A DNA stretch of 64,000 bases from Micromonospora echinospora (lineage in GTDB: Bacteria > Actinomycetota > Actinomycetes > Mycobacteriales > Micromonosporaceae): assembly GCF_014203425.1 (NCBI RefSeq), contig NZ_JACHJC010000001.1, positions 1,488,001 through 1,552,000 on the forward strand. The letters run 5' to 3'. Below, piece after piece: positions 25,656 to 54,148 of the stretch (position 1 is its first letter; the number at the start of each line of letters is the position of its first letter). Below the pieces are notes generated by a model. That model was not told the DNA's origin. It saw only the letters and a program-made list of their open reading frames with translations, and made no database searches. Made by a program: the position numbers and the translations under genes.

Positions 25656-25706
25656 GTGGAACGGCATGGGTGTCTACGTCCCTGTTTGACACCCATGCCG
25701 TTCCAC
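25656..25706. repeat. Intergenic inverted repeat A, 19-bp arms
   Basis: GTGGAACGGCATGGGTGTC (25656-25674) and its perfect complement (25688-25706) flank a 13-nt loop. It lies between convergent genes, 20 bp after the S66 peptidase stop. It may terminate transcription, but length, symmetry and lower GC match the other long-armed repeats in this window. Confidence 0.85.
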
Positions 25707-25816
25707 TCGCTGCTGGCAGCGGTCGGGTGGGCGGAGAGATCTACTGCGCCTCGGCGAGGCGAGGTGGGGTGGGGTGGGGTATCGGAGAGCGGTGGGCCCC
25801 GCCATCTCGGCAAGGA

Positions 25817-26722
25817 TCACACGACGGCGAAGGCGCGGACCGGGAACGTGCCCATGCCGGCCACCCGCGGCGGGGCGGCGGTGAACCGGAAGCCGGTCGG
25901 CGGCAGCGCGTCCAGGCCGGTCAGGTGCTCCACGATCGGCACCCCGGCGGCCAGCAGACCCGTGTGCGCCGGGCGCCGGCCCGCTGCCGCCGGAGTCATG
26001 TCGTCGATGTTGATCGAGTCGATGCCGACGAGCGCCGCGCCCGCCTCGGCCAGCCACTGCGCGCCGTCACCGGTCAGGTAGGGCGCTTCCGGTCCGGCGT
26101 ACCCGTCGGTGCCGAAGTGCGCGTCCCAGCCGGTGTGCAGCAGCACCGCGCACCCGGCCACGTCGTACGGGGCGAGCAGCAGCCGGTCCACCGCCCGCGT
26201 ACCGGCCGGCACCCGTACCACCAGGCCGGGCAGGTCGGCGAGGCGGTCCAGCGGTACCCCGGTCAGGTCCGGCCCGTCGGCGAAGCGGTGCGACGGCGTG
26301 TCCACGTACGTGCCGGTGTTGGCGATCATGTCGATCCGCCCGACCTGGAACTCGACGCCCGGTGCGTACCGGCCCCGGGACGCCTCCCGGGTCAGCCACT
26401 CGCTGATCGCCGGGCCGGGCCAGCCGGGCAGCGTGACCATGCCGTCGGTGACCACGTGGCTCAACTCGACCAGCCGCCGCCCGCCGCCGGTGGCCGGTGC
26501 GGTCACCCCGCGCCCGCCCTTGTGCGGCTCCTCGACGACGGTCCGGTTGGTGATCCGTACCTCGCCGACCATGAGCAGCCCGAGGTGCCGGACCAGCAGC
26601 GCTGCCACCTCGTCGTCTGTGACATCCGGGTGCGGCACGTCCAGCCGGAACCCGTCCGTGCGCAGGCCACCACCGTTTGCGAAGTCCACCTCGGCGTCGA
26701 AGACCGCCCGATATTCGACCAT
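25817..26722 (-). CDS. Cyclase/kynurenine formamidase-family hydrolase with extra N-terminal domain
   Basis: A 301-residue protein. Residues about 83-301 are a cyclase-family metal hydrolase: VELSHVVTDGMVTLPGWPG and the metal-binding TGTYVDTPSHRFADG (from HxGTHxDxPxH), DVAGCAVLLHTGWDAHFGT, and GIDSINIDD. Members include arylformamidases and isatin hydrolases; the substrate is unknown. The first about 75 residues (MVEYRAVFDAEVDFANGGGL, DDEVAALLVRHLGLLMVGEV) form a distinct compact domain not part of the cyclase fold, so this looks like a fusion. The first His of the motif is replaced by Asn-Thr (ANTGTYVD), which deserves checking. ATG at 26722. Confidence 0.82.
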   Translation of the reverse strand: MVEYRAVFDAEVDFANGGGLRTDGFRLDVPHPDVTDDEVAALLVRHLGLLMVGEVRITNRTVVEEPHKGGRGVTAPATGGGRRLVELSHVVTDGMVTLPGWPGPAISEWLTREASRGRYAPGVEFQVGRIDMIANTGTYVDTPSHRFADGPDLTGVPLDRLADLPGLVVRVPAGTRAVDRLLLAPYDVAGCAVLLHTGWDAHFGTDGYAGPEAPYLTGDGAQWLAEAGAALVGIDSINIDDMTPAAAGRRPAHTGLLAAGVPIVEHLTGLDALPPTGFRFTAAPPRVAGMGTFPVRAFAVV

Positions 26723-26800
26723 CCGCCCACCGCATCACGTGCCGTGGCGCAGCGTCAAGATCCGCAAGCTGGGCGGGCCCGGATTGTCGGGAGGGGGGGT

Positions 26801-26806
26801 TAGGCT
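26801..26806 (+). promoter_or_regulatory. -10 box TAGGCT for the mfd transcript
   Basis: TAGGCT lies 6 nt before the GTG at 26813, predicting transcription start at or next to that GTG. This makes the 19-codon uORF leaderless and gives mfd a leader of about 66 nt. Confidence 0.5.
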
Positions 26807-26812
26807 CGGACG

Positions 26813-26872
26813 GTGCACCCCCCGTCCGGCTGGACGCGGGGTCGTCGTCGTGTGCCGATCCGCTGGAAGTGA
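26813..26872 (+). CDS. Leaderless 19-codon uORF upstream of mfd
   Basis: GTG at 26813 opens a 19-codon frame (MHPPSGWTRGRRRVPIRWK) that stops at 26870-26872, six bases before the mfd ATG. The TAGGCT box places the start at the mRNA 5' end. The mfd Shine-Dalgarno (GGAAG, 26865-26869) is inside the last uORF codons, so ribosomes finishing the uORF would be delivered to the mfd start. Four of five consecutive codons 10-14 are for Arg or Gly-Arg, mostly CGT. Whether the peptide matters is unknown. Confidence 0.4.
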   Translation: MHPPSGWTRGRRRVPIRWK

Positions 26873-26878
26873 TCACTG

Positions 26879-29800
26879 ATGCTCACCGGACTCTTCTCCG
26901 CCGCCCTGGCCGACCCGGGGCTGGCCCGGGCGCGTGACCTGGCGCGCTCCGGTGCCGCCCAGGTCGACGGGCTCGACCTGACCGCCCCCGCCGCGCTGCG
27001 CCCGTTCGCGGTGGCCGCGGTCGCCGCCGACGAGCCGGCCGGCGGCGCGGGCCGCCCGGTGCTCGCGGTCACCGCCACCACCCGGGAGGCCGACGACCTG
27101 GCCTCCGCGCTGGGCAGCCTGCTGCCGCCGGAGCAGGTGGCGGTCTTCCCGTCCTGGGAGACGCTGCCGCACGAGCGGCTGTCGCCCCGCTCCGACACCG
27201 TCGGGCGGCGGCTGGCCGTGCTGCGCCGGCTGGCCCACCCGGACGCGGCCGACGCGCACGGCCGCACCGGGCCGCTGCGGGTCGTCGTCGCGCCGGTCCG
27301 CTCGCTGCTCCAGCCGCAGCTCAAGGGCCTCGGAGACCTGGAACCGGTGCAGCTCGCCGCCGGTGACGAGGCCGACCTCGAAGAGGTCGCCCGCCGGCTC
27401 ACCGACATGGCGTACGCCCGGGTCGACCTGGTCACCAAGCGCGGCGAGTTCGCCGTACGCGGCGGCATCCTGGACGTCTTCCCGCCCACCGACGAGCACC
27501 CGTCCCGGGTCGAGTTCTGGGGCGACGAGGTGGAGGAGATCCGCACGTTCGCGGTCGCCGACCAGCGCACCATCGAGGGCGTCGCGCAGATGTGGGCGCC
27601 GCCGTGCCGCGAGCTGCTGCTGACCCCGAGCGTGCGGAAGCGGGCCGCCGCACTCGCCGCCGAGCACCCCGAGCTGGCCGAGATCCTGGACAAGCTCGCC
27701 GAGGGCATCCCGGTCGAGGGGATGGAGTCCCTCGCGCCGGTCCTGATCGGCGCCGACGCGCTGGAACTGCTCGTCGACTGCATGCCGGCCGGCACCCACG
27801 TACTCCTCTGCGACCCCGAGCGCATCCGCACCCGCGCGCACGACCTGGTGCGTACCTCGGAGGAGTTCCTCCAGGCCAGCTGGGCCGCGGCCGCCGTCGG
27901 CGGCCAGGCCCCGGTCGACCTCGGCGCCGCCGCCTTCAAGACCCTGGCCGAGGTACGCACGGCGGCCCGCGCCCTGCGCCAGCCCTGGTGGACGCTCGCC
28001 CCGTTCGGCCTGGTCGAGGCGGACGTGGCGCCGGCCCGGCAGCCCTGGGAGGACGCGCCGGCCGAGGTCGACGTCACCCCCGACGACGCCATCGCGGTGA
28101 GCCTGGCCGCCCAGCCGGCCCCGCTCTACCACGGCGAGACCTCCCGGGTGGTCGACGACCTGTTGCGCTGGGCCGGCGAGGGCTGGTCGATCGCGCTGGT
28201 CTTCGAGGGGCACGGTCCCGCCCAGCGGGCCGTCGAGGTGCTGCGCGACGCCGGCCTCGGCGCCCGGCTCACCGAGGAGGTGCCCACCGCGCCCGCGCCC
28301 GGCGAGCTGCTCGTGTCGTGCGGCTGCCTGACCGCCGGCTTCGTCGACGAGGCGTCGAAGTTCGTGCTCCTGACCGGCAACGACGTCACCGGCGGCCGGG
28401 GCACCTCCACCCGCGACATGCGCAAGATGCCCAGCCGGCGGCGCAACACCATCGACCCGCTGGAGCTGAAGGCCGGCGACTTCGTGGTGCACGAGCAGCA
28501 CGGCATCGGCCGGTACGTCGAGCTGGTGCAGCGCACCGTGAACGGCGCCAGCCGCGAATACCTGGTCATCGAGTACGCGCCGAGCAAACGCGGCCAGCCC
28601 GGCGACCGCCTCTTCGTCCCCACCGACCAGCTCGACCAGCTCTCCCGCTACGTCGGCGGCGAGCAGCCCACGCTGCACAAGATGGGCGGCTCGGACTGGC
28701 AGAAGTCCAAGGCGCGGGCGCGCAAGGCGGTACGCGAGATCGCCGCGCAGCTCATCCAGCTCTACGCCGCGCGCAAGGCGTCCAAGGGGCACAACTTCGC
28801 ACCCGACACCCCGTGGCAGCGGGAGCTGGAGGACGCGTTCCCCTGGCAGGAGACGCCCGACCAGCTCGCCGCCATCGAGGAGGTCAAGCGGGACATGGAG
28901 CAGACCGTCCCGATGGACCGGCTGATCTGTGGCGACGTCGGCTACGGCAAGACCGAGATCGCGGTACGGGCGGCGTTCAAGGCGGTGCAGGACGGCAAGC
29001 AGGTGGCGGTGCTGGTGCCGACCACGCTGCTCGTGCAGCAGCACTACAACACGTTCGCCGAGCGGATGAGCCAGTTCCCCGTGTCGATCCGGCAGCTGTC
29101 CCGGTTCCAGACGCCGAAGGAGACCGAGCAGACGCTGGAGATGGCCGCCGCCGGCACCGTCGACATCGTCATCGGCACCCACCGGCTGCTCCAGGCGTCC
29201 ACCCGGTTCAAGTCGCTCGGGCTGGTGATCATCGACGAGGAGCAGCGGTTCGGCGTCGAGCACAAGGAGCATCTCAAGACGCTCCGTGCCTCGGTCGACG
29301 TGCTCGCCATGTCGGCCACCCCGATCCCGCGCACGCTGGAGATGGCGATCACCGGGATCCGGGAGATGTCCACCATCGCCACCCCGCCGGAGGAGCGGCA
29401 CCCGGTGCTCACGTTCGTCGGCGCGTACGACGACCGGCAGGTGGCCGCCTCCATCCACCGCGAGCTGCTGCGCGACGGCCAGGTCTTCTACCTGCACAAC
29501 CGGGTCGAGTCGATCGAGAAGACGGCCCGCAAGCTGCGGGAGCTGGTGCCGGAGGCCCGGGTCGCGGTGGCGCACGGCCAGATGGGCGAGGACGCGCTGG
29601 AGAAGGTGATGGTCGGCTTCTGGGAGAAGGAGTTCGACGTCCTGGTCTGCACCACGATCGTCGAGTCCGGCATCGACATCCCGAACGCCAACACGCTCAT
29701 CGTGGAGCGGGCCGACCTGCTCGGCCTGGCCCAGCTGCACCAGATCCGCGGCCGGGTCGGCCGGGGCCGGGAGCGGGCGTACGCGTACTTCCTCTACCCG

Positions 29801-30535
29801 CCGGAGAAGCCGCTCACCGAGAACGCGCACGAGCGGCTGGCCACCATCGCCCAGCACACCGAGCTCGGCGCGGGCATGTACGTGGCGATGAAGGACCTGG
29901 AGATCCGCGGCGCCGGGAACCTGCTCGGCGGCGAGCAGTCCGGCCACATCGAGGGCGTCGGCTTCGATCTGTACGTCCGGATGGTCGGCGAGGCCGTCTC
30001 CGCCTTCAAGGGCGAGAGCACGGAGGAGGAGACCGAGGTCAAGGTCGACCTGCCGATCGACGCGCACCTGCCGCACGACTACATCGGGGTGGAGCGGCTG
30101 CGCCTGGAGATGTACCGCAAGCTCGCCGAGGCCCGCGACGCCGAGCGGCTGCGCGAGGTGGTCGCCGAGATGACCGACCGGTACGGCGAGCCGCCCGCCC
30201 CGGTGCAGAACCTGGTCGCGGTGGCGCGGTTCCGGCTGCTGGCCCGCCGGTACGGGCTCACCGACGTGTCGATGCAGGGCAAACACATCCGGTTCGGCCC
30301 GCTGCCGCTGCCCGACTCGAAGCAGATGCGGCTCAAGCGCTACCACCCGGACTCGGTCTACAAGCAGGCGCTCGACCAGGTCAGCGTGCCCCGGCCCAGT
30401 ACCCGGCGGATCGGTGGTGAGCCGCTGCGCGACCAGGCGTTGCTGGAGTGGTGCGGGCAGCTCCTCGCCGACGTCCTCGGCAAGCCCGAGGAGCTGGCCG
30501 GTTCTGCCAGCCCCGCAGTGGCGAGCGGAAGGTGA
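26879..30535 (+). CDS. mfd: Transcription-repair coupling factor
   Basis: A 1218-residue DNA translocase that removes stalled RNA polymerase at lesions and recruits UvrA. The N-terminal UvrB-like region, the RNA polymerase-interacting segment (DFVVHEQHGIGRYVEL, near residue 535), the helicase core with Walker A GDVGYGKTEI (685-694) and DEEQRFG (from 786), the VHGQMGE/QIRGRVGRGRERAYAYF motifs and the C-terminal TRCF domain are all visible. ATG at 26879 follows GGAAG and a small uORF. The C-terminus ends GKPEELAGSASPAVASGR; 60 bp on, a repeat of the GKPEELA coding sequence continues in the same frame after the stop, so the tail has been altered by a local duplication. Confidence 0.97.
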   Translation: MLTGLFSAALADPGLARARDLARSGAAQVDGLDLTAPAALRPFAVAAVAADEPAGGAGRPVLAVTATTREADDLASALGSLLPPEQVAVFPSWETLPHERLSPRSDTVGRRLAVLRRLAHPDAADAHGRTGPLRVVVAPVRSLLQPQLKGLGDLEPVQLAAGDEADLEEVARRLTDMAYARVDLVTKRGEFAVRGGILDVFPPTDEHPSRVEFWGDEVEEIRTFAVADQRTIEGVAQMWAPPCRELLLTPSVRKRAAALAAEHPELAEILDKLAEGIPVEGMESLAPVLIGADALELLVDCMPAGTHVLLCDPERIRTRAHDLVRTSEEFLQASWAAAAVGGQAPVDLGAAAFKTLAEVRTAARALRQPWWTLAPFGLVEADVAPARQPWEDAPAEVDVTPDDAIAVSLAAQPAPLYHGETSRVVDDLLRWAGEGWSIALVFEGHGPAQRAVEVLRDAGLGARLTEEVPTAPAPGELLVSCGCLTAGFVDEASKFVLLTGNDVTGGRGTSTRDMRKMPSRRRNTIDPLELKAGDFVVHEQHGIGRYVELVQRTVNGASREYLVIEYAPSKRGQPGDRLFVPTDQLDQLSRYVGGEQPTLHKMGGSDWQKSKARARKAVREIAAQLIQLYAARKASKGHNFAPDTPWQRELEDAFPWQETPDQLAAIEEVKRDMEQTVPMDRLICGDVGYGKTEIAVRAAFKAVQDGKQVAVLVPTTLLVQQHYNTFAERMSQFPVSIRQLSRFQTPKETEQTLEMAAAGTVDIVIGTHRLLQASTRFKSLGLVIIDEEQRFGVEHKEHLKTLRASVDVLAMSATPIPRTLEMAITGIREMSTIATPPEERHPVLTFVGAYDDRQVAASIHRELLRDGQVFYLHNRVESIEKTARKLRELVPEARVAVAHGQMGEDALEKVMVGFWEKEFDVLVCTTIVESGIDIPNANTLIVERADLLGLAQLHQIRGRVGRGRERAYAYFLYPPEKPLTENAHERLATIAQHTELGAGMYVAMKDLEIRGAGNLLGGEQSGHIEGVGFDLYVRMVGEAVSAFKGESTEEETEVKVDLPIDAHLPHDYIGVERLRLEMYRKLAEARDAERLREVVAEMTDRYGEPPAPVQNLVAVARFRLLARRYGLTDVSMQGKHIRFGPLPLPDSKQMRLKRYHPDSVYKQALDQVSVPRPSTRRIGGEPLRDQALLEWCGQLLADVLGKPEELAGSASPAVASGR

Positions 30536-30560
30536 CCCGGCAAGCCCGAGGAGCTGGCCG
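30478..30560. repeat. 23-bp direct repeat at the mfd 3' end, 60-bp offset
   Basis: The 23 bases at 30478-30500 recur exactly at 30538-30560. The first copy encodes LGKPEELA at the Mfd C-terminus; the second lies after the stop (30533-30535) but in the same frame and reads GKPEELAASVPAGAR then TGA at 30584-30586. A 60-bp in-frame insertion that brought a stop codon explains this. Confidence 0.9.
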
Positions 30561-30633
30561 CCTCGGTCCCGGCGGGTGCGCGATGAGGTGGGTGGAGTCA
30601 CAGGCTGGTACGGGGCGTGAGAGAGTGACCCAC

Positions 30634-31404
30634 ATGCGTGCCCGCCGTTCCCTCGTCGCCGTCAGCGTCGCGGCCCTCGCCGCGCTCTCTCTCGCCGCCT
30701 GTGGCCGATCCGCCCCGGACGTCGCCGCCTACGTCGGAGACACCCGGTACTCCGTCGAGCGGGTCGACGCGATCTATGACGACGCGCAGCGGCAGTACGC
30801 GGACGCCGTCCGGAACCAGGCGCCGCAGACGCCGTCGCCGGAGGAGCTGCGTTCCCCGGTGACGCGGCAGGACGTGCTGAACCTGCTCGTCGCGCTCGAC
30901 CTCGGCAAGCGCGTGGCGGCCGAGAAGGGCCTCCAGGTCACCGACGAGGTGTCCCCGGAGCAGCTCCAGCAGCCGCTGCGGATGCCGGCGACCACCGAGT
31001 ACACGAAGCTGTGGGGCGAGTGGGTGGACCTCTCCGCCACCCTCCAGCAGAGCCTGCCCCCGGCCGACCTCAGCGACGAGTCCCTGATGGCCGTCTACCG
31101 CGCCATCGAGAAGACCGGGGCGATCCAGCCGGGCCTGAGCGTCGACCAGGTCCGGCAGGCGTTCGGCGAGGCCGGTTTCGTGCGCAGCGCCACCGCGCTG
31201 AGCACCGCGCTTCAGCAGGAGGCCGAGAAGGCGGACATCCGCATCAACCCCCGGTTCGGGGTGACCGGCGTGCCGTCGCTCGTCAACACCGGCCAGTCGC
31301 TCGTCTTCTACTCCCTGCCCTACGTCAACCAGGACGGCCCGGTCACCGACATCTCGACGCCGGACGCGCCGGCCAGCAGCGAGCCGGCTCCCGGAGCCGC
31401 ATGA
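30634..31404 (+). CDS. SurA-N-like lipoprotein
   Basis: A 256-residue exported lipoprotein. The signal peptide (RSLVAVSVAALAALSLAAC) carries the lipobox LAAC. The mature part (DVAAYVGDTRYSVERVDAIY, ALDLGKRVAAEKGLQVTDE, SVDQVRQAFGEAGFVRSA) follows the SurA N-terminal chaperone pattern, but no PPIase domain is present. It probably helps fold or sort exported proteins. ATG at 30634 follows GAGAG; a GTG at 30625 in frame is an alternative. It overlaps mazG by 4 nt (ATGA), and the mfd-lipoprotein-mazG order recurs in actinobacteria. Confidence 0.82.
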   Translation: MRARRSLVAVSVAALAALSLAACGRSAPDVAAYVGDTRYSVERVDAIYDDAQRQYADAVRNQAPQTPSPEELRSPVTRQDVLNLLVALDLGKRVAAEKGLQVTDEVSPEQLQQPLRMPATTEYTKLWGEWVDLSATLQQSLPPADLSDESLMAVYRAIEKTGAIQPGLSVDQVRQAFGEAGFVRSATALSTALQQEAEKADIRINPRFGVTGVPSLVNTGQSLVFYSLPYVNQDGPVTDISTPDAPASSEPAPGAA

Positions 31405-32390
31405 CCGCGCGCATCGTCCTGCTCGTCACCTCGCCCCGGCTGCCCGCCGGCCTGCTGACCTCGGCCGCCTGGGACGCCGTACGCTCCGCGCCGGTCCTCG
31501 CCGGTGCGGAGAGCGAGTTGACCCGGGCGGTTCGGACGGCCGGCGCCGAGGTGAGCGTGGTGGCCGAGGGCGCGACCCAGGCGCTGCTCGACGCCGCCGC
31601 CACGCACGGCGGCGCGGTGTGGCTGGCCGGCCCGGCCGGCGACGAGACGCTCGCCCGTGAGCTGGGGCTGCGGCTGGCCCGCGAGCCCGGCCTGGCCGAG
31701 CTGGAGCTGATGTACGGCTCGTGGGACCCGCCCGGCGCCCGGCTGCTCGACGCGGTCGAGGTGATGGACCGGCTGGCCTCCCCGGGCGGCGATCCGTGGA
31801 AGCGGGCGCAGACCCACCGCAGTCTGGCCGGGTTCCTGCTGGAGGAGTGCTACGAGGCGTACGACGCGATAAGCGCCGACGACACCGACGCGCTCCGCGA
31901 GGAACTGGGCGACGTGCTGCTCCAGGTGCTGCTGCACGCCCGGCTGGCCGAGAACCTGCCGGAGGGCGAGAGCTGGAGCGTCGACGACGTGGCGGGCACG
32001 CTTGTCGACAAGATGGTGCGGCGCAACCCGCACGTGTTCTCCGGCGAGCCGGCCGGCTCGATCGAGGAGATCGAGGCGAACTGGGAACGGATCAAGCGGG
32101 CCGAGAAGACCCGCGACTCGGTGCTGGACGGCATCGCGCTGAGCCAGCCCGCGCTGGCGCTGGCCGCGAAGATCCTGGACCGGGCCGGCCGGGTCGGTCT
32201 GGCCGTACCGCCCCCACTGGCCGAGTCCCAGGTGGACCCGGAGGCCCGGCTGGGGGCGAGCCTGCTGGCAACTGTCGCCGCCGCTCGCCAGGCCGGCATC
32301 GACCCCGAGGCCGCGCTGCGACGAGCCACCCTGGCGTACGCCGAGGCGGTCCGAGCCGCCGAACGCCCCACCCCCACCCACCCCACCTGA
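31401..32390 (+). CDS. mazG: MazG-family nucleoside triphosphate pyrophosphohydrolase
   Basis: A 329-residue protein with a degenerate N-terminal region of about 105 residues (ARIVLLVTSPRLPAGLLTSA) and a MazG domain after it: LLEECYEAYDAI and LREELGDVLLQVLLHA are the paired EExxE/ExxD metal-binding motifs, followed by KMVRRNPHVF and WERIKRAEK. It hydrolyses NTPs to NMP and pyrophosphate and removes aberrant nucleotides. Only one MazG domain is evident. ATG at 31401 overlaps the upstream TGA, so it is cotranslated with the lipoprotein gene. Confidence 0.9.
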   Translation: MTARIVLLVTSPRLPAGLLTSAAWDAVRSAPVLAGAESELTRAVRTAGAEVSVVAEGATQALLDAAATHGGAVWLAGPAGDETLARELGLRLAREPGLAELELMYGSWDPPGARLLDAVEVMDRLASPGGDPWKRAQTHRSLAGFLLEECYEAYDAISADDTDALREELGDVLLQVLLHARLAENLPEGESWSVDDVAGTLVDKMVRRNPHVFSGEPAGSIEEIEANWERIKRAEKTRDSVLDGIALSQPALALAAKILDRAGRVGLAVPPPLAESQVDPEARLGASLLATVAAARQAGIDPEAALRRATLAYAEAVRAAERPTPTHPT

Positions 32391-32433
32391 CCCCGCCCCA
32401 CCTCCCCCACCTCCCCCGCGCCCTCTCACGCCG

Positions 32434-32508
32434 CCGCGATCTTGCACTTGCGGCCCTCTGGGCATCGCAAATGTCCCTTCTATCCGGGCAGGAAGTGCAA
32501 GATCGCGG
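32434..32508. repeat. Intergenic inverted repeat B, 16-bp arms
   Basis: CCGCGATCTTGCACTT (32434-32449) and its perfect complement AAGTGCAAGATCGCGG (32493-32508) flank a 43-nt loop. Arms contain GATC. No U tract; about 45 bp after mazG. Confidence 0.9.
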
Positions 32509-32732
32509 AAAGCTGCCGGGGTGGGTTGCGTGGTGGCGGGACAGGCTGACGGGGAGCGACGCTTCGCCGCCCTTGTCGGCTCGGTCGGGGTCCCGTCCGC
32601 TGCCAGCCCTGTCCCGCTGCCCTCGGCTCATCCCGCGCCGGCGGCTGCCCCGACCCGCCTCGCCGCTCGCCCTGATTGAGTCGAGCCCTCTCGCCTCCCG
32701 AGACTTGTAGACCGATCTCGGGATCGGCCGTA

Positions 32733-32851
32733 GATCTTGGTACGAAAGAGCCCTCATAGGGGCTGGGCGGCTGGGCGGATCTTGGTACGAAACGGCCCCT
32801 ATGAGGGCTGTTCAGTCCCGCCCAGCCGCCCAGCCGCCCAGCCGCCCAGCC
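32733..32851. repeat. Compound palindromic element C with tandem 8-mers
   Basis: GATCTTGGTACGAAA occurs twice in direct orientation (32733-32747, 32778-32792). AGCCCTCATAGGGGC (32749-32763) has its perfect complement at 32795-32809. Two copies of GGCTGGGC (32761-32776) face four copies of the complement GCCCAGCC (32820-32851). The inside CATAGGGGC core is shared with element D. Confidence 0.9.
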
Positions 32852-32870
32852 GCCAGGCGGGTCGGTTCGG

Positions 32871-32927
32871 TGATCAAGGAGTTTGGGGTCGAAGCGGGCG
32901 CTGGTGGGGACACAAACTCCTTGATCA
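32871..32927. repeat. Intergenic inverted repeat E, 15-bp arms
   Basis: TGATCAAGGAGTTTG (32871-32885) and its perfect complement CAAACTCCTTGATCA (32913-32927) flank a 27-nt loop. Arms contain TGATCA. It lies 64 bp before the DUF885 start. Confidence 0.9.
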
Positions 32928-32991
32928 ACGGGGAGGGTGGCCCGGCGGGCGGGACGGGGAAAGGTCGGGGGTGATCGGTAGGGTGCCGGGT

Positions 32992-34611: not shown

Positions 34612-34615
34612 GGGC

Positions 34616-36210: not shown

Positions 36211-36263
36211 GATGCCCAGCCTTGTCGATCGACGCAACGTCTCGCAAACCGGTTGCCGGTTGA

Positions 36264-37706
<1,443 letters not shown>

Positions 37707-42499: not shown

Positions 42500-42555
42500 G
42501 CGAGATCTTGGAAGGAAACGGCCCTCATAGGGGCCACAATCTTCCAAGATCTCGC
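42500..42555. repeat. Intergenic inverted repeat D, 15-bp arms, CATAGGGGC core
   Basis: GCGAGATCTTGGAAG (42500-42514) and its complement CTTCCAAGATCTCGC (42541-42555) flank 26 nt that contain a second stem, GGCCC (42520-42524) with GGGCC (42531-42535). The core AAACGGCCCTCATAGGGGCC is close to that of element C 9.7 kb away. It lies 14 bp after the stop of the PadR-partner gene. Confidence 0.9.
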
Positions 42556-42698: not shown

Positions 42699-42721
42699 CT
42701 GACCGCAAGGAGGACGGGCCC

Positions 42722-44141: not shown

Positions 44142-44161
44142 GGAACACCTGAGGCGGTGGG

Positions 44162-46472: not shown

Positions 46473-47833
46473 TGGACCGGGCCGAGGCGGCGAGCGGCTG
46501 GGCGCCCACCTGGGCGCTCGGCCGGGCCGTGCTGCTCACCGGCGTGCTGCTCATCGCTGCGGTGCTGCTCGGCCGCATCGACCTGGTGGTGCTCGCCACG
46601 CCGTTCGCGCTCGGCACCGCGTACGCGCTGCGCCGCCGCCCGGCCGGGTTGCCGGAGCTGGAGTTGAGTGTCGGGGACACCCACCTGGTCGAGGGCTCCC
46701 CGCTGGCCGCGACCGTCGCGGTGGCCAACCCGGACCTGATCGGGTACGACGTGGCGGTGGTGCGGACCCGGATGTCGCGCTGGCTGCGGGTGGAGCAGGT
46801 CGGTTTCGGCGGCGCCGGGCTGGACGTGAGCCGATCCGGTGGGGCGGACCGCCCGTTCGTCACCTCCGTACCCCGGGGCAGCGCTGTCGACCTGGAGCTG
46901 ACCGGCACGGCGCTGCGGTGGGGGCGGCACCCGATCGGCCCGGCCGGGGTGCGGGTCGCCGCCGCCGACGGGCTGCTGGTTTCCCGCGCCGTGATCACCG
47001 ACCCGATCCGCGCCCGGGTCTATCCGCGTACCGAGCCGTTCGACGCGGTCGAGGTGATGCCCCGGGCCGCCGGGCTGGTCGGCGCGCACCGGTCGCGACG
47101 GCCGGGCGAGGGCGGCGAACTGGCCGGGGTCCGCGTGTTCGCACCCGGCGACCGGCTGCGCCGCATCGACTGGCGGGTGTCGCTGCGCGCCCGCCAACTG
47201 CACGTCGCGGCGACGCTCTCGGACCGGGACGCCGAGGTGGTGGTGCTGCTGGACGTGCTGGCCGAGGCGGGCCGCTCCGGTGGGGTGAACGGCCCGGCGT
47301 CGGTGCTGGACACCACGGTCCGGGCCGCCGCCGCGATCGCCGAGCACTACCTGCACCGCGGCGACCGGGTGTCGATGCTGGAGTACGGCCCGGCCGCTCG
47401 CCGGCTGCGTCCGGCCACCGGGCGGCGGCAGTACCTGACCGTGCTGGAGTGGCTGCTCGACGTGCACGCCGAGTCGTCCCCGCACGAGCCGTACGACCAG
47501 GTCTTCGGCCCGCAACTGCTCTCCTCGGACGCGCTCGTGGTGGTGCTCACCCCGCTGCTCGACGAGCGGTCCGCGCAGATGCTGGCCCGGCTGGCCCGCG
47601 GCGGCCGGTTCGTGGTGGCGGTGGACACGCTGCCGGCCGAGCTGCCGATGCCGAAGGAACGTGGCTGGGCCGAGGTGGCGTACCGGCTGTGGCGGCTGGA
47701 CCGGGACACGATGATCGGCCAGCTCCGCGAGCACGGCGTGCCGGTGGTGCGCTGGGCCGGCGCCGGCAGCCTGGACGAGGTGCTGCGCGACGTGGCCCGC
47801 CTGGCGACCGCCCCGAAGGCAGGGTTGCGGTGA
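46472..47833 (+). CDS. DUF58 domain protein
   Basis: A 453-residue protein with two N-terminal helices (LGRAVLLTGVLLIAAVLLGR, LVVLATPFALGTAYAL), a beta-rich middle region and the DUF58 signature FAPGDRLRRIDWRVSLRARQ before a vWA-like domain (DAEVVVLLDVLAEAG) lacking a perfect MIDAS. It is the usual MoxR partner. Exported or cytoplasmic side of the large domain cannot be told. Starts by overlap with the moxR stop. Confidence 0.92.
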   Translation: MDRAEAASGWAPTWALGRAVLLTGVLLIAAVLLGRIDLVVLATPFALGTAYALRRRPAGLPELELSVGDTHLVEGSPLAATVAVANPDLIGYDVAVVRTRMSRWLRVEQVGFGGAGLDVSRSGGADRPFVTSVPRGSAVDLELTGTALRWGRHPIGPAGVRVAAADGLLVSRAVITDPIRARVYPRTEPFDAVEVMPRAAGLVGAHRSRRPGEGGELAGVRVFAPGDRLRRIDWRVSLRARQLHVAATLSDRDAEVVVLLDVLAEAGRSGGVNGPASVLDTTVRAAAAIAEHYLHRGDRVSMLEYGPAARRLRPATGRRQYLTVLEWLLDVHAESSPHEPYDQVFGPQLLSSDALVVVLTPLLDERSAQMLARLARGGRFVVAVDTLPAELPMPKERGWAEVAYRLWRLDRDTMIGQLREHGVPVVRWAGAGSLDEVLRDVARLATAPKAGLR

Positions 47834-48390
47834 GCGCTGTGGTCGAGCGGGTGCGGGCGCTGCGGTACGCCGCCGCCCGGGTCAGCCCGCTGCCGCTGCT
47901 GGTACGCGGCGGCATCTTCCTCACCGTGCTGGCCGGTTTCCTGCTCGCGTACCCGGTGCAGGCCCTCACCGCGCGCTCGCTGCTGGCCCTGACGGTGGCC
48001 GCGGTGCTGCCGGCGTTCGGGCCGCGCCGGATCTGGCCGACGTTCACCGCGCTGGTGACTGTCGCCGGCTGGCTGCTGGCCACGCTCGGCTTCGACCGGC
48101 CACCGGCGCTGTGGCGGCTGCTCGCCGTGGCGACGCTGCTCTACCTGGCGCACTCGCTCTGCGCGCTCGCCGCGCTGCTGCCCTACGACGGGCTGATCGA
48201 CCCGGACCTGGTGTTCCGGTGGCTGAGCCGGGCCGGCGGCGTGGTGCTCGCCAGCGCTGTGCTCGGCGTGGTGCTGGCGTGGCTCGGTGGGGTCGGCGGG
48301 ACGGACGGCTCGCAGGCGGCGACAGTGGTGGGGCTGCTGGTGGCGGTGGGGCTGAGCGCGCTGCTGGGCTGGCTGCTGCGTCGCAGGTGA
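47830..48390 (+). CDS. Five-helix membrane protein closing the MoxR operon
   Basis: A 186-residue hydrophobic protein with about five transmembrane helices (LLVRGGIFLTVLAGFLLAYP, LLALTVAAVLPAFG, WPTFTALVTVAGWLLATLGF, WRLLAVATLLYLAHSLCALA, VVGLLVAVGLSALLGWLL). No motif or family recognised. GTG at 47830 overlaps the DUF58 stop. Probably a membrane platform for the MoxR-DUF58 pair. Confidence 0.78.
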   Translation: MSAVVERVRALRYAAARVSPLPLLVRGGIFLTVLAGFLLAYPVQALTARSLLALTVAAVLPAFGPRRIWPTFTALVTVAGWLLATLGFDRPPALWRLLAVATLLYLAHSLCALAALLPYDGLIDPDLVFRWLSRAGGVVLASAVLGVVLAWLGGVGGTDGSQAATVVGLLVAVGLSALLGWLLRRR

Positions 48391-48493
48391 CGCAGCGTTC
48401 CGGTGACGTTGCGCAGGTCACACGGGTTGTGCTCCGTCACAGAAGGGGGTCTCGCGCGGGATTACCGGGGGCCCGCGGGGAAAGATAGATGAC
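48391..48493 (+). promoter_or_regulatory. ndh upstream region with inverted GTGAC/GTCAC
   Basis: GTGAC and GTCAC flank about 9 nt (48402-48420), and a second pair (TTGTG/TCACA) lies around 48427-48442. Spacings do not match the standard Rex or CRP operators. A purine-rich GGGGAAAG run precedes the GTG start at 48494. Any regulation is a guess. Confidence 0.25.
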
Positions 48494-49825
48494 GTGAACC
48501 CGAAGCGGATCCTTGTCGTGGGTGCCGGTCACGTGGGCCTGTACGCCGCTCTGCGCCTGTCCAAGAAGCTGAGCAGCCGTGAGGCCGAGGTCATCGTCGT
48601 CGACCCGCAGCCGCACATGACGTACCAGCCGTTCCTCCCAGAGGCATCGGCGGGCAACATCTCCCCGCGGCACGCCGTCGTGCCGCTGCGGCGGGAGTTG
48701 CGTAAGTGCACCGTGGTGGCCGGCACTGTCACCCGGATCGACCACGACCGCATGACCGCCGTGGTGCAGCCGATCAGCGGCCCGGCCCGGGAGATCCCGT
48801 ACGACCACGTGGTGGTCGCGCCCGGCTCGGTCTCCCGCACCCTGCCGATTCCCGGCCTGCACGAGCACGGCATCGGGTTCAAGACCATCGGTGAGGCCAT
48901 TTACCTGCGCAACCACGTGCTGGACCGGCTCGACGTGGCGGCCTCCACCACCGATCCGGCGGTACGCAGCCGGGCGCTGACGTTCACCTTCGTCGGCGGC
49001 GGCTACGCCGGCATCGAGGCGCTCGCCGAGATGGAGGACATGGCCCGCGACGCGCTGCGCTACTACCCGGAGCTGAAGCCGGAGGAGATGCGCTGGGTGC
49101 TGGTCGAGGCGACCCAGCGGGTGCTGCCCGAGGTCGACCGGGACATGGGCGCCTACACGGTGCAGCAGCTGATGAAGCGGGACATGGACATCCGCCTGGA
49201 CACCCGGCTGGAGTCCTGCGTCGACGGTGTGGTGAAGCTCTCCGACGGGGACAGCTTCCCGTCCGACACCATCGTCTGGACCGCCGGTGTGAAGCCGTCG
49301 CCGATGCTCGACGCCACGGACTTCCCGCGCGACGAGCGCCGCCGGGTCACCTGCCGGCCCACCCTGCAGATCGTGGACGGCGACCGGGTGATCGAGGGCG
49401 CGTGGAGCGCGGGCGACTGCGCCGCGGTGCCGGACCTGACCAAGGAGCCGGGCAACTTCTGCTCGCCGAGCGCCCAGCACGCGGTGCGGCAGGCGGCGCG
49501 GATGGCCGACAACATCGCCAACGTGATCCGCGGGCGCGAGCCGGTCGACTACAAGCACAAGCACGCCGGCAGCGTGGCCAGCCTCGGCCTGCACAAGGGC
49601 GTGGCGCAGGTCTACGGCATCAAGATGACCGGTTGGCCGGCCTGGTTCATGCACCGGACGTACCACATGTCGCGGATCCCCTCGTTCAACCGCAAGGTGC
49701 GCGTGGTGGTCGACTGGACACTGGCGTTCTTCCTCAAGCGTGAGGTGGTCGCGCTGGGCCAGCTGCACGACCCGCGTGAGGAGTTCGCCGAGGCGTCCGC
49801 CCCGCCGGTTGCCGCGCGCGTCTGA
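48494..49825 (+). CDS. ndh: Type II NADH dehydrogenase (NDH-2)
   Basis: A 443-residue monotopic flavoprotein of the respiratory chain that oxidises NADH and reduces menaquinone. Two dinucleotide sites: VVGAGHVGLYAAL (FAD) and FVGGGYAGIEALAE (NADH); AQHAVRQAARMADNI precedes the C-terminal membrane-binding region (GWPAWFMHRTYHMSRIPSFN, WTLAFFLKREVVALGQLH). GTG at 48494 with GGGGAAAG upstream. Family match is strong; other NAD(P)-linked oxidoreductases of the family are possible but less likely. Confidence 0.9.
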   Translation: MNPKRILVVGAGHVGLYAALRLSKKLSSREAEVIVVDPQPHMTYQPFLPEASAGNISPRHAVVPLRRELRKCTVVAGTVTRIDHDRMTAVVQPISGPAREIPYDHVVVAPGSVSRTLPIPGLHEHGIGFKTIGEAIYLRNHVLDRLDVAASTTDPAVRSRALTFTFVGGGYAGIEALAEMEDMARDALRYYPELKPEEMRWVLVEATQRVLPEVDRDMGAYTVQQLMKRDMDIRLDTRLESCVDGVVKLSDGDSFPSDTIVWTAGVKPSPMLDATDFPRDERRRVTCRPTLQIVDGDRVIEGAWSAGDCAAVPDLTKEPGNFCSPSAQHAVRQAARMADNIANVIRGREPVDYKHKHAGSVASLGLHKGVAQVYGIKMTGWPAWFMHRTYHMSRIPSFNRKVRVVVDWTLAFFLKREVVALGQLHDPREEFAEASAPPVAARV

Positions 49826-49834
49826 CGCACGTCC

Positions 49835-49872
49835 GCGAAAGGGCCCTTTCCGTACGGGAGGGGCCCTTTCGC
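49835..49872. terminator. GGGCCC-type hairpin between convergent genes
   Basis: GCGAAAGGGCCC (49835-49846) pairs with GGGCCCTTTCGC (49861-49872) across 14 nt, between the ndh stop and the stop of the convergent membrane-protein gene. The GGGCCCTTT core is also in the hairpins near 20.5 and 60.9 kb. Confidence 0.75.
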
Positions 49873-49900
49873 CGTGTCCGGGGTCAGAACCGCTGTCGGG

Positions 49901-51727
49901 TCAGAACCGCCACGTCCAGGCGTCGGCGAGGCGGGTACCGGGCCCGAAGAGCTGTTCCAGGGTGCGGCGCAGCATCTCCGCGTGCGGCGCGTCGTCGGTC
50001 ACCGCGACGCAGGACGCGCGCCAGAACTCGACGTCCCGGGCGGCCTGGCGGCGCTGCCGGTCGCCGACCGCGGGCGCCACGCCCCGCCGGGCCACGTCGG
50101 CGAGCAGGGCCGAGGTGGGGCGTTGCCAGGTGCCCATGGTGGCCGAGCCGCCCCGGCCGTACGGGCCGATGAAGAAGCCCTCCGGCATGCCGAAGTCGAC
50201 GCCGGTGGCGGTGGCCCAGCGCATCGGCCAGGGGTCCTGCGGGGTGGCGGTGGGCACCGGCACCAGCACCCCGCCGGGGCGTACGCACTGCCGCCAGTGG
50301 CCGCCGGTGACGAACTCGGGCAGCGGCGGCCGGTCCATCGTGGGCAGCGGTGTCGGCAGGACGCTGAGCACCGCCGCGCCGACCGCGATCGGGACGGCCC
50401 GGCGGACTCGGCCGGATTCGCCGAGCGCCCGGTGCACGGCGAGCGTGAGCACGGTGCCGACCAGCGGCAGCACCGCCAGCGCGAAGCGCATCGGCAGCGC
50501 GCCGTCCACCACCGGCAGCCCGGCCAGCAGCCGGTACGGGCCGGGGAGCCCGGTCCGTTCGCCGCCGACCACGACCTCGGGGCCGAGCGCGAGCGTGGCC
50601 GTGACCAGCGCGCCGGCCACCAGCGCCACCACCAGGGGCCGCCGGCCCAGCCAGGCCGCGCAGCCGACCGCTACCAGCAGCAGCGGCCAGCCGAGGAACG
50701 TGGTGAACTCGGCCGGACCGGTGGTCAGCCGGACCGCCTCCGGGCTGCCGAACAGCGTCAGCGCGGAGAGGCGGGTCCAGCCGGCCAGGTCGGCGGAGAA
50801 GTAGGCGGGCGGGAACATCCCGTCGGCGACGCCCTGCGGACCGGCGAACTGCACCCAGAGCGGGTACGCCAGCACCGGCAGCGCCAGCCCGGCGGCGCCG
50901 ATCAGTCCACGGGCGAAGCCGGGACCGGCCCGGCGCAGCAGATCCCGGTCGGCCATCCCGTACGCGAGAGTCATCACCGCCAGCGTGAGCGCGGTGAGGA
51001 AGAGCACCTCCTCGCCGACGAACACCTGGACGATGACGACCGCGGCGAGCCCGGCCGCCGACGACACCATCCGCCGCCGGTCCGGGCCGTCCGGGCGCCC
51101 GGACGGGTCGGCGGCGCGCAGCAGCCGGACCACCAGCCAGACCAGCACCGGGACCAGCCACTGCGCGGTCATGTGCAGGTGGCCGTTGCTCTGCGAGACC
51201 ACGCCCGGCCCGAAGCCGCACAGTGACGCGCCGAGCCCGGCGGCGAGCCGGCGGGCCCGCAGGACACGGGTGAACAGCAGGTACCAGGCCAGCGCGGTGC
51301 CGGCCATGTTGAGCGCGACCAGCAGCGCGAACGTGACGGGCGCCCCGAACGCCAGCGTGACCGGGGCGAGCAGCACGCCGAGCGCGACGACCGAGGTGTT
51401 CGCCATCAGGTTGACCCCGTCCGGCGCGTTCAGGCGGTCGCTGACCAGGCTCAGCTCGCCGCGAAGGGCGCGCGCGTCGAGCGCCAGGAACCACTCGTAC
51501 AGTGTCTGGTCGGCCGGGTTGAGCGCGAGCACCCGCGTGCCCGGCGCCGGCCAGAGGCCGTGGGTGAGCCAGCCGGCGAGCACGACGAACGCCAGCCCCA
51601 CGAGCAGGTCCGCGCGGCGCCGCCGGACGGCGGCCGCCATCCGCCGCGTGACCGCCGCCGGGCGCACCGCCCGGACCTGATCCGGCCCGGGGGCCGTGCG
51701 GGCGGCGCTGGTCACGGCCTCGACCAT
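49901..51727 (-). CDS. Polytopic membrane protein, GT-C-glycosyltransferase-like
   Basis: A 608-residue protein with roughly ten transmembrane helices (LLVGLAFVVLAGWLTHGL, LLAPVTLAFGAPVTFALLVA, LAAVVIVQVFVGEEVLFLTA and others) and a soluble C-terminal domain (GGVLVPVPTATPQDPWPMRW, FFIGPYGRGGSATMG). The first loop after helix one (LNPADQTLYEWFLALDAR) is acidic and could be a polyprenyl-phosphate sugar site as in GT-C enzymes, but no catalytic motif is proven. ATG at 51727 is the first start before the hydrophobic core; a longer frame crosses the tRNA gene and is rejected. Convergent with ndh. Confidence 0.72.
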   Translation of the reverse strand: MVEAVTSAARTAPGPDQVRAVRPAAVTRRMAAAVRRRRADLLVGLAFVVLAGWLTHGLWPAPGTRVLALNPADQTLYEWFLALDARALRGELSLVSDRLNAPDGVNLMANTSVVALGVLLAPVTLAFGAPVTFALLVALNMAGTALAWYLLFTRVLRARRLAAGLGASLCGFGPGVVSQSNGHLHMTAQWLVPVLVWLVVRLLRAADPSGRPDGPDRRRMVSSAAGLAAVVIVQVFVGEEVLFLTALTLAVMTLAYGMADRDLLRRAGPGFARGLIGAAGLALPVLAYPLWVQFAGPQGVADGMFPPAYFSADLAGWTRLSALTLFGSPEAVRLTTGPAEFTTFLGWPLLLVAVGCAAWLGRRPLVVALVAGALVTATLALGPEVVVGGERTGLPGPYRLLAGLPVVDGALPMRFALAVLPLVGTVLTLAVHRALGESGRVRRAVPIAVGAAVLSVLPTPLPTMDRPPLPEFVTGGHWRQCVRPGGVLVPVPTATPQDPWPMRWATATGVDFGMPEGFFIGPYGRGGSATMGTWQRPTSALLADVARRGVAPAVGDRQRRQAARDVEFWRASCVAVTDDAPHAEMLRRTLEQLFGPGTRLADAWTWRF

Positions 51728-51771
51728 ATCGGCCGCAGCCGTCGGGGTACGCCGCGTCGCGGCCGAGCCGC

Positions 51772-51777
51772 TACGGT
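51772..51777 (+). promoter_or_regulatory. Candidate -10 box of the tRNA-Leu(UAA) gene
   Basis: TACGGT 40 bp upstream of the mature tRNA 5' end. A precursor leader of about 33 nt would be removed by RNase P. The -35 is not clear. Confidence 0.35.
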
Positions 51778-51816
51778 GAGATCTGCACCGCGCGTGTCGG
51801 CGCGCCGGTGTCACCC

Positions 51817-51897
51817 GCCCGGGTGGTGGAACGGCAGACACGGCCGCCTTAAAAGCGGCTGCCGCAAGGCGTGCGGGTTCGACCCCCGCCCCGGGCA
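51817..51897 (+). tRNA. bldA: tRNA-Leu, anticodon UAA (bldA-type)
   Basis: An 81-nt class II tRNA. Acceptor GCCCGGG pairs CCCGGGC; anticodon stem GCCGC/GCGGC with loop CTTAAAA gives anticodon UAA; long variable arm with GCC-GCAA-GGC stem; T stem GCGGG/CCCGC with loop TTCGACC; discriminator A, no encoded CCA. In streptomycetes this tRNA (BldA) is the only reader of UUA, a codon nearly confined to developmental and secondary-metabolite genes. The D-arm and variable-arm sequences closely follow the BldA pattern from memory (GGTGGAA, GCAGACACGG). It stands alone between a minus-strand gene and a BI-1-like gene. Confidence 0.95.
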
Positions 51898-52007
51898 CAC
51901 GAACTCTCAGCTTTCCCACAGCTAGCCGTCGCACGCGCGATTGCGGCCACGTTTACCCTGGAGTAGCACGTCTACGTGCGATCGACCCCCTGAGGGAGGC
52001 CTGAGAA

Positions 52008-52853
52008 GTGAAGACCTCGAACCCGGTGCTCGCCCGGCTCGGCCAGGCGGCGGAGCGTGAGCGGGCGGCCGGGTACGCCCAGCCCGGGCCTTACGGTCAG
52101 CCCGGACACCCCCAGCAGTACCCCCAGCAGCAGTACCCGCAGCAGCCCTACCCGGGCGGCTACGGCCAGCAGGTGGCCCCGCCCACCGTGACCCCGATGA
52201 CGCTCGACGACGTGGTCGTCAAGACGGTCCTCATGCTCGCCATCCTCGGCGCCTCGGCCGCAGCGGCCTGGGTGCTCGTGCCGGACTCGCTCGTCGGCGT
52301 GGCGTGGATCGGCGCCGCGGTGGTCGGCCTGGTGCTGGGTCTGATCATCTCGTTCTCCCGGATGGCCAACCCGGCGCTCGTGGTGGCGTACTCGATCATC
52401 GAGGGCGTCTTCGTCGGCATGGTCAGCAAGGCGTTCGAGTCGCTCTACGACGGCATCGTGCTCCAGGCGGTCGCGGGCACGTTCGGCGTGTTCTTCCTGA
52501 TGGCCATGATCTACAAGGCGCGGATCATCCGGGCCACCCCGAAGTTCGCCCGGATCATGGTGGCGATCATGGCCGGCCTGTTCGGCGTGATGATGGTCAA
52601 CCTGGTGCTGGCGCTGTTCGGCGTGAACACGCACCTGCGCGACGGCAGCCCGCTGGCGATCGGGTTCAGCCTGGTCTGCATCGTGGTGGCGTCGTTGAGC
52701 TTCGTGCTCAACTTCGCGCAGATCGAGGAGGGGGTCCGCATGGGCCTCCCGCAGCGCTACGCCTGGACGGCCGCCTTCGGCATCGTGGTCGGCCTGGTGT
52801 GGCTCTACATCGAGATCCTGCGGCTGCTCAGCTACTTCCAGGGCGACGACTGA
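52008..52853 (+). CDS. Bax inhibitor-1/YccA-family membrane protein, copy 1
   Basis: A 281-residue protein. A cytoplasmic N-terminus opens with KTSNPVLARL and a Gln/Pro/Tyr/Gly-rich repeat stretch (HPQQYPQQQYPQQPYPGGYG) before seven hydrophobic helices (VLMLAILGASAAAAWVLV onward) with YSIIEGVFVGMVSKAFES and LSFVLNFAQIEEGVRMGLPQ near the end, where the conserved acidic residues of the family lie. Possible ion (calcium/proton) leak channel or protease-interacting factor; the function is not settled. GTG at 52008 follows GGGAGG. The same family is encoded again at 52976. Confidence 0.85.
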   Translation: MKTSNPVLARLGQAAERERAAGYAQPGPYGQPGHPQQYPQQQYPQQPYPGGYGQQVAPPTVTPMTLDDVVVKTVLMLAILGASAAAAWVLVPDSLVGVAWIGAAVVGLVLGLIISFSRMANPALVVAYSIIEGVFVGMVSKAFESLYDGIVLQAVAGTFGVFFLMAMIYKARIIRATPKFARIMVAIMAGLFGVMMVNLVLALFGVNTHLRDGSPLAIGFSLVCIVVASLSFVLNFAQIEEGVRMGLPQRYAWTAAFGIVVGLVWLYIEILRLLSYFQGDD

Positions 52854-52854
52854 C

Positions 52855-52910
52855 CGACGCCCGCCGCCGACGCCCGCCTGCCGCATCCGCGGCGGCGGGC
52901 GTCGCCGTTT
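52855..52910 (+). terminator. Rho-independent terminator, 15-bp stem and T tract
   Basis: CGACGCCCGCCGCCG (52855-52869) pairs perfectly with CGGCGGCGGGCGTCG (52890-52904), and a TTTT run follows at 52907-52910. It separates the two BI-1-like genes. Confidence 0.85.
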
Positions 52911-52975
52911 TCCCGTCCCTGCCGCGCCGCCCGGGGCAGAGTGGGACTCGGGTACGTCGGCGGGAGGTGGTCGCG

Positions 52976-53734
52976 GTGCGCAGTGCCAATCCGGTGCTGG
53001 ACCGGCTGGACGACGTCGGCCGCGCCGAACGGCAGGTGCTCGGGGGCGGGACCGCCGCCGCGATGACGGTGGCCGACGTGGTGAGCCGGACCGTGGGGCT
53101 GCTGCTGGTCACCGGCGTCACGGCGGCGCTGTCCTGGGTGCTGGTGCCGCAGGCCGCGTGGATCTCCGCCGCGCTGGCCGGGAGCGCGCTGGCCAGCCTC
53201 GCCCTGGTGCTCGTCATCTCGCTGAAGCAGATCACCAGCCCGCCGGTGATCGTCGGGTACGCGGTGCTGCAGGGGCTGCTGCTCGGGGTGGCCAGCCGCG
53301 CCTTCGAACTGGTCTACCCGGGCATCGTGGTGCAGGCGGTGGTCGGCACGTTCGGCGTCTTCCTCGGTATGGCCGCGCTCTACCGGGCCCGGCTGGTGCG
53401 CGCCACCCCGCGCCTGGCCCGCCTGGTCATCGGCACGCTCGTCGGGATCGTGGCGATCGGCCTGGTGAACCTGTTCGCGTACCTGTTCACCGGGCGGCAG
53501 GGCGTGGCCGTCTACAGCCTCAGCGACCGGGTGGGCTGGCTGCCGTACGTGTTCTCGGGGGTGGCGATCATCGCCGGCGCGCTCAGCTTCGTCCTCGACT
53601 TCGACCTGGTCGAGCGGTCGGCGGCCAACCGGCTGCCCCGCCGCTACGCCTGGTACTGCGCGTTCGGGCTGCTCGTCGGGTTGATCTTCCTGTACTGGCA
53701 GATCCTGCGCCTGCTCAGCTACGTACGCCGCTGA
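52976..53734 (+). CDS. Bax inhibitor-1/YccA-family membrane protein, copy 2
   Basis: A 252-residue paralogue of the protein at 52008. It starts with the same SNPVL box (RSANPVLDRLDDVGRAER) and the same order of seven helices (LLLVTGVTAALSWVLVPQA, YAVLQGLLLGVASRAFELVY, GALSFVLDFDLVERSAANRL) and ends WQILRLLSYVRR, very like WLYIEILRLLSYFQ in copy 1. The Gln/Pro-rich N-terminal stretch is missing. GTG at 52976 follows GGGAGG. Tandem duplication with divergence is the simplest history. Confidence 0.85.
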   Translation: MRSANPVLDRLDDVGRAERQVLGGGTAAAMTVADVVSRTVGLLLVTGVTAALSWVLVPQAAWISAALAGSALASLALVLVISLKQITSPPVIVGYAVLQGLLLGVASRAFELVYPGIVVQAVVGTFGVFLGMAALYRARLVRATPRLARLVIGTLVGIVAIGLVNLFAYLFTGRQGVAVYSLSDRVGWLPYVFSGVAIIAGALSFVLDFDLVERSAANRLPRRYAWYCAFGLLVGLIFLYWQILRLLSYVRR

Positions 53735-53751
53735 CCGTAGACTCGGCGGCG

Positions 53752-54072
53752 ATGAGCGCAGCGGAACTGGACCGGGCGGTGACCCTGCTGGTCCGACAGG
53801 TGCAGCACTGGCAGCAGCCGCGCTGGTCGGCTCCGGCCGGGGGCGGCAACGTGTCCCGGGCCGACCTGGTGCACAAGCTGGTCCAGGAGATCGCCAACCT
53901 GGCCGCCGACGCGGCGGGTGAGCCGCGCCGCGATGTGCCCCGGCTGCCGAGCGACCTGGCCCTGCCCGACCAGCTCCGCGTGGTCGCCGCCGATCTGACC
54001 CTGGCCGCGCCCCCCGAGCCCGTGCTGACCGAGGCCACAGAGGCGATAACCCGAACCCGCACCGCCCTCTGA
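53752..54072 (+). CDS. Small helical protein, unknown function
   Basis: A 106-residue soluble protein with amphipathic helices (LDRAVTLLVRQVQHWQQPRW, DLVHKLVQEIANLAADAAGE, LRVVAADLTLAA). No motif is recognised; this looks like a conserved actinobacterial small protein. ATG at 53752 is 8 nt after TAGACT and lacks a Shine-Dalgarno, so a leaderless transcript is possible. It is 17 bp after the second BI-1-like gene and may also be read through from it. Confidence 0.65.
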   Translation: MSAAELDRAVTLLVRQVQHWQQPRWSAPAGGGNVSRADLVHKLVQEIANLAADAAGEPRRDVPRLPSDLALPDQLRVVAADLTLAAPPEPVLTEATEAITRTRTAL

Positions 54073-54089
54073 CCTCGCCCTCTGTTGCG

Positions 54090-54148
54090 TTGATCATGAG
54101 GTTGGCAGCGACAAAACGGACGCGAATCCCCGCCAACCTCATGATCGA
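54090..54148. repeat. Intergenic inverted repeat F, 15-bp perfect arms
   Basis: GATCATGAGGTTGGC (54092-54106) and its complement GCCAACCTCATGATC (54132-54146), extended by one G-T and one T-A pair, flank a 25-nt loop. Arms contain ATGATC. It lies between convergent genes. Confidence 0.9.

Follow-up and report, generated by a model that had tools for sequence, protein, structure and literature searches.

Terminators that end in a U-tract are often missing in high-GC actinobacteria, in which intrinsic or bidirectional terminators take the form of a hairpin behind the stop codons, lacking a U-tract and common to convergent genes. Among repeated palindromic DNA, REPINs are doublets of REP sequences that form hairpins (Bertels and Rainey 2011, PMC3116915). 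Stem-loop sequence families form a further group, and the main text of the paper describing them (PMC2267715) suggests some, pairs of uptake sequences included, as terminators and gives Corynebacterium and Mycobacterium as high-GC Gram-positives; neither 'Streptomyces' nor 'actino' occurs in that main text. A literature search over titles and the openings of abstracts, covering part of the matches and few subscription journals, returned no description of the elements reported here.

We analyzed a 64-kb window, that is, the whole stretch of DNA at positions 1488001-1552000 of the 7.13-Mb single-contig source genome, with gene positions predicted by a purpose-built codon-usage caller rather than taken from annotation. 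The window contains 20 palindromes (some overlapping) whose arms match perfectly over at least 12 bases and whose loops do not exceed 60, compared with a mean of 1.3 with arms of at least 12 across 20 sequences resampled to equal dinucleotide make-up; arms of at least 15 occurred once in 10 such sequences. An earlier note had described five hairpins as a single family of elements just outside genes, with perfect 15-19 bp arms, 13-43 nt loops, no poly-T and lower GC than the surroundings. Our measurements agree for all five: the arm and loop ranges are as given, GC is 0.54-0.61 compared with 0.69-0.75 in the 500 bases on either side, no T-run follows any of the hairpins, and all five sit between predicted genes. 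GATC is present in four of the five, as the note had also said, and the fifth belongs to a class (W) that lacks GATC yet is itself a repeat family. The window also contains palindromes of other kinds, among them hairpins resembling ordinary terminators and an AAGGGGCCC family. Gene ends (window 60891-60977, 20505-20578 and 49835-49872) also carry a second family of hairpins, AAGGAAGGGCCCCTTATTAAC, with which 11 hairpins cluster in 780 kb of the source genome, not all of them looking like close members. Scanning the window with Rfam 15 at the gathering score gave no match at the elements, the only matches being an Ms_IGR-5 sRNA (62424-62657, minus strand) and a tRNA gene (51817-51897, plus strand).

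The five hairpins belong to several families of hairpin elements that are dispersed and of fixed length, each element consisting of two near-identical inverted arms and a variable loop; they are given here without a strand. The class W element (25656-25706; 51 bp, 19-bp GTGGAACGGCATGGGTGTC arms, loop 13) lies between convergent genes for an LD-carboxypeptidase and a cyclase, and the aligned gene ends of this slot are 37 and 34 nt apart in two syntenic genomes. The class A element (32434-32508), 67 bp from GATC to GATC plus CCGC/GCGG, has perfect arms of 16 and a loop of 43, a folding z of -5.2, and orthologous copies in two related genomes, G020 and G025. A degenerate, partly duplicated class D copy (32733-32861) carrying GGCTGGGCGG repeats lies between it and the class B element (32871-32927; 55 bp from GATC to GATC, arms 15, loop 27), which has an ortholog in G020 and a degenerate one in G025; the slot orthologous to the degenerate copy's region shows an A-D-B arrangement in both genomes. 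For the class D element (42500-42555; 48 bp from GATC to GATC, arms 15, loop 26) an ortholog is present in G020 and none was found in G025. The class C element (54090-54148; 55 bp from GATC to GATC, arms 15, loop 25), whose perfect palindrome spans 54092-54146 with one mismatch in the outer two pairs, lies between two convergent stop codons, each 19 nt away, and its G020 ortholog shows one compensatory stem change. The stop-to-stop region around it (54069-54169) is predicted to form a single long hairpin, with z of -6.4 on the plus and -7.0 on the minus strand under RNA parameters. In more distant genomes, the stops of this slot are 7 nt apart in three and 4-5 nt apart in two, while the G025 ortholog (L082) has an intergenic stretch of 343 nt, compared with 89 nt in L080, and its insert is MITE-like, with long inverted ends (GTGCCTTTCGAGCTGATATC). 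Measured from GATC, or from the arm for the first element, those at 25656, 32434, 42500 and 54090 lie 20, 47, 18 and 19 nt past a stop codon, and the one at 32871 lies 481 nt past a stop and 65 nt ahead of a start.

Although all five are thus repeat-family members, they do not form one family, there being at least seven classes (A, B, C, D, E, H and W). Class A (pattern GATCTTGCACTT) has 12 copies of 65-68 bp in the source genome, class B (GATCAAGGAGTT) 26 of 54-56 bp, class C (GATCATGARGTT) 44 of 54-56 bp, class D (GATCTTGGWA) 22 of 47-48 bp, with three longer copies of 58-59 bp arising from duplication within the loop, and class W (GTGGAAC..GGGTGT) 8 exact copies, 51 bp in 8/8. A related arm, GATCWWGnRSTT, is common to A, B, C and the rarer E and H, so that where these classes differ, both arms carry paired changes. 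Their combined pattern, which imposes no base-by-base pairing of arms, has 145 matches in the source genome; an early general count of 307 was discarded as a copy number because it includes apparent chance matches in coding sequence. A looser class-arm search over 400 kb each identified 15 elements in the source genome, 21 in G020 and 8 in G025, compared with 0, 0 and 0 in three resampled controls. Solitary arms are rare, with 9 matches (at most 2 mismatches) in 2.35 Mb, one locus being counted three times, some matches appearing coding by eye, and none traced to a transposase. Far from being rare elsewhere, the arms recur genome-wide, at 8-44 copies per class, and in relatives, bearing out the proposal of a dispersed palindromic class rather than simple terminators. 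Other repeats were also seen: a 75-bp GATC..CACCAG family (source stretch 50161, G000:C1:1430161, and 218544; G020 stretch 44408 and 44561), a relative of which sits inside a class C element whose own G020 ortholog is intact, and two nearby hairpins (source stretch 367736 and 368062) with GAGGTCTCCGGTA arms and unlike loops.

Of 200 genomes sampled from the order, 39 carry the combined pattern, among them all 23 of the genus (source genome included), with 1 to 163 matches in each of the latter. Outside the genus but within the order it was found in 16/177 genomes (1/6 other genomes of the family and 15/171 others), where lengths and arms are distinct in several genomes of other families (55 bp in G059, 66 bp in G209 and G227). 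Across the phylum, 4 of 396 genomes carry the pattern, two of them from the genus and two with single matches, one of which is not clearly palindromic, and none of 22 genomes in the class outside the order has it. Among named genomes, the 80 stretches listed with class C all come from Micromonospora, Verrucosispora or a Micromonosporaceae isolate. A set of 25 copies taken from G059, G209, G227 and G160, from other families, comprises 11 convergent, 10 tandem and 4 divergent loci, and their flanks appear C-rich and G-rich by eye. Unlike the present classes, 80-bp palindromes starting GATCAGGT were observed in two other-family genomes (L299 position 642 and L302 position 3527).

Many of the elements are retained at the orthologous site in different species, and gene 3' ends are the main location of the elements. 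Across 400 kb of synteny, same-class orthologs of 15 source-genome elements were found for 12/15 in G020 and 4/15 in G025, the remainder having been gained, lost or degenerated. Drifting arms at conserved positions, named in the earlier note as the mark of ordinary terminators, are not what 19 orthologous pairs show: identity is 0.90 in arms, 0.76 in loops and 0.56 in nearby flanks, compared with 0.48 for unrelated flanks and 0.53 for same-class non-orthologous loops. Among 288 arm-pair cells from 16 equal-length ortholog pairs, 242 were unchanged, 41 had one-sided changes, and double changes comprised 1 Watson-Crick and 4 non-pairing cases; because arm changes between orthologs are mostly one-sided, strict maintenance of the structure does not hold on short time scales. 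The covariation that the note had asked to see is present at class C stem positions 9 and 13-18 (above shuffling, P <=0.004, relatedness not corrected), with classes A, B and D showing it weakly and at few positions. A structured RNA, which the note had also suggested, may fit the class C covariation, but there was no clear excess of G-U over A-C mismatches in the transcribed orientation (45 vs 35, P 0.16). Hairpins may also replace one another: a slot with a C element in M. chaiyaphumensis holds an AAGGGGCCC hairpin in the source genome, G020 and G025, and a similar swap involves a degenerate class A copy in L182. One slot holds B, C and A in three species; because M. tulbaghiae carries both B and C at this slot, in tandem, these two are explained by differential loss, and class switching here remains only a weak point. 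Loop inversion between orthologs yielded one ambiguous case.

Placement relative to genes was far from even. We used 57 source-genome loci (12 A, 15 B, 15 C and 15 D), the first returned rather than a random draw, in which 21/42 A-C copies lie between convergent genes (P 4e-11, the convergent share being 9.8% of intergenic bases, counting gaps of at least 60) and 4/42 between divergent genes; class D, with 2/15, has no convergent preference, and class W has 6/7 copies in convergent gaps. A pooled set of 202 elements from several species is partly orthologous and includes pattern-chosen copies, so that its counts are not independent; its 174 A/B/C/E/H members divide into 72 convergent, 63 tandem, 21 divergent, 14 inside predicted genes and 4 unplaced, and at 55/63 tandem loci the upstream stop is the nearer. 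In 39 narrow convergent slots the elements are centred, with a mean offset of 19.4 nt compared with 30.9 if uniform, and 0/5000 simulations reached so low an offset. Loop orientation showed no trend with gene direction, numbers being small. Where the element is absent, other hairpins (z < -2) occupy 69% of 26 convergent gaps of 36-140 nt, compared with 7% of 40 tandem and 8% of 24 divergent gaps; unclustered intergenic hairpins (n=30 in 780 kb of the source genome) have a median loop of 6.

A-C-type elements have a C-rich 5' flank and a G-rich 3' flank, a pattern that extends for at least 60 nt and is seen whatever the gene context. The C-G skew is +0.35/-0.35 at the 72 convergent and +0.34/-0.30 at the 63 tandem loci, +0.20/-0.32 beside the 21 divergent copies, where it is weaker on the left, and +0.30/-0.40 beside the 14 in-gene copies; class D flanks lack it. 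Convergent 3' ends without an element have a skew of +0.045, and those with an AAGGGGCCC hairpin -0.04. We rejected the skew as a pre-existing insertion target, orthologous element-less slots having only +0.11/-0.07 (n=12, background +0.01/-0.03), a mean that excludes four slots with AAGGGGCCC or the GTGGAA motif and includes one resembling that family by eye. Insertion into the apex of existing hairpins, a candidate prompted by three copies inside longer palindromes, is not claimed. Mirrored pairing over the first 12 flank bases at the 57 loci (5.26, compared with a mean of 4.59 and a highest value of 5.21 in 500 flank swaps) is in excess only over roughly the four bases next to the element, and aligning the 40-base flanks locally gave 8.68 vs 8.47; by itself, flank pairing would not determine the side that is C-rich.

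From these sequence patterns, we consider the chances about even that the elements are REPIN-like hairpins under selection that act as bidirectional 3'-end modules, with both termination and mobility being what we infer. Such elements would have spread at some time through a non-RAYT activity and would now be maintained by selection. C-rich, G-poor tracts are Rho-loading sites, and Rho assistance is probable, since the C-rich, G-poor side comes ahead of the hairpin whichever strand is read: Rho would probably load on the C-rich RNA and the hairpin would set the final 3' end, a symmetric arrangement that may terminate or trim transcripts whichever side they come from. The slot between convergent genes may need such a device, which several unrelated hairpin families could fill. 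The main doubt comes from the divergent and in-gene copies, where a terminator is less expected yet the skew is nearly as strong, and from the rarity of compensatory changes between close orthologs; the non-significant difference between G-U and A-C mismatches and class D, without flank skew or convergent preference, also count against 3'-end modules. A bolder version, which we regard as unlikely, is that RAYT-independent REPIN-like elements across several families of one order are each a complete bidirectional terminator (C-rich tract, hairpin, then a C-rich tract on the opposite strand), and that some enzyme moves them, with exchange among gene ends. If true, mobile DNA would supply part of a genome's transcription-termination sites.

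A tentative but serious alternative is that the elements are purely selfish miniature mobile DNA, whose transposase recognises the paired arms and whose copies survive only where they are least harmful, namely in convergent gaps and after stop codons; arm identity would then reflect transposase recognition rather than use by the host. The copies are many and near-identical (in G059, the 10 listed of 42 look closely alike), presence varies between species, and the rarity of solitary arms suggests that the arm pair is the unit. However, no candidate transposase emerged. The RAYT-type enzyme that the earlier note had proposed looking for (Y1_Tnp, PF01797) is absent from the source genome and from 16/18 element-bearing genomes (0/9 positive within the genus), the other two having a full-length match (G051) and two partial matches (G101), in a search whose control was positive in 5/14. 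Neither a clean empty site nor a target duplication was seen in the genomes compared, which have diverged heavily around the sites. In viral contigs elements were not found: of 62 pattern loci considered for phage carriage, a strong palindrome is present at 1, whose contig has a GC of 0.56. Selfish DNA also leaves the better conservation of arms than loops in orthologous copies to be accounted for, and insertion tolerance alone predicts neither the centring nor the flank skew.

It is improbable that the elements are dyad binding sites of a DNA-binding protein, such as a nucleoid or chromosome-organising factor, for which gene ends are a permissive location. The near-fixed arm-to-arm distance of each class and the strictly kept arms would suit such sites, and A-C mismatches about as frequent as G-U fit DNA as well as RNA, but an operator with its two half-sites 48-68 bp apart from end to end, separated by a variable loop, would be unusual, several arm classes coexist, and the two arms of a single class C element covary (relatedness not corrected), something not required of independent half-sites. 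Ordinary intrinsic terminators, alike through chance or high GC, are very improbable, since the 3'-end location and the hairpins filling many convergent gaps of the same genome are outweighed by loops of at least 13, repeated arms and no T-run, against the median loop of 6 elsewhere, and by the genome-wide copy counts.

Compared with known systems, in the portions of the sources considered here, the elements resemble REPINs (PMC3116915) in their inverted, strongly conserved ends, less conserved spacer and predicted hairpin, and in being extragenic, with many copies and several sequence groups per genome. To this extent the REP/MITE-like label of the earlier note holds, but not as to RAYT coupling: Y1_Tnp is missing from the source and most element-bearing genomes, the internal REP palindrome is not seen in the arms by eye, singlets are few, and, whereas REPINs are random over extragenic space, the elements concentrate at gene 3' ends with C/G-skewed flanks. 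Like REP/BIME sequences (Nunvar et al. 2010, PMC2817692), they are dispersed extragenic palindromes, but they have no RAYT association and their unit is a near-fixed 48-68 bp hairpin. They share with bacterial MITEs such as ERIC and NEMIS (PMC3116915) a short, non-coding form with inverted ends, but fall below the ~100-400 bp given there; a 2.35-Mb arm search revealed no parent transposon, and the diverged sites compared revealed no target duplication. Like the stem-loop families of PMC2267715, they are repeated families of stem-loops. REPIN-like families without RAYT raise the question of what spreads and keeps such hairpins. The elements also hint at how high-GC actinobacteria may separate convergent genes, providing a large natural test set: they resemble the terminators of these bacteria in being U-tract-less hairpins behind stops, common to convergent genes, but differ in having repeated, conserved arms and long loops.
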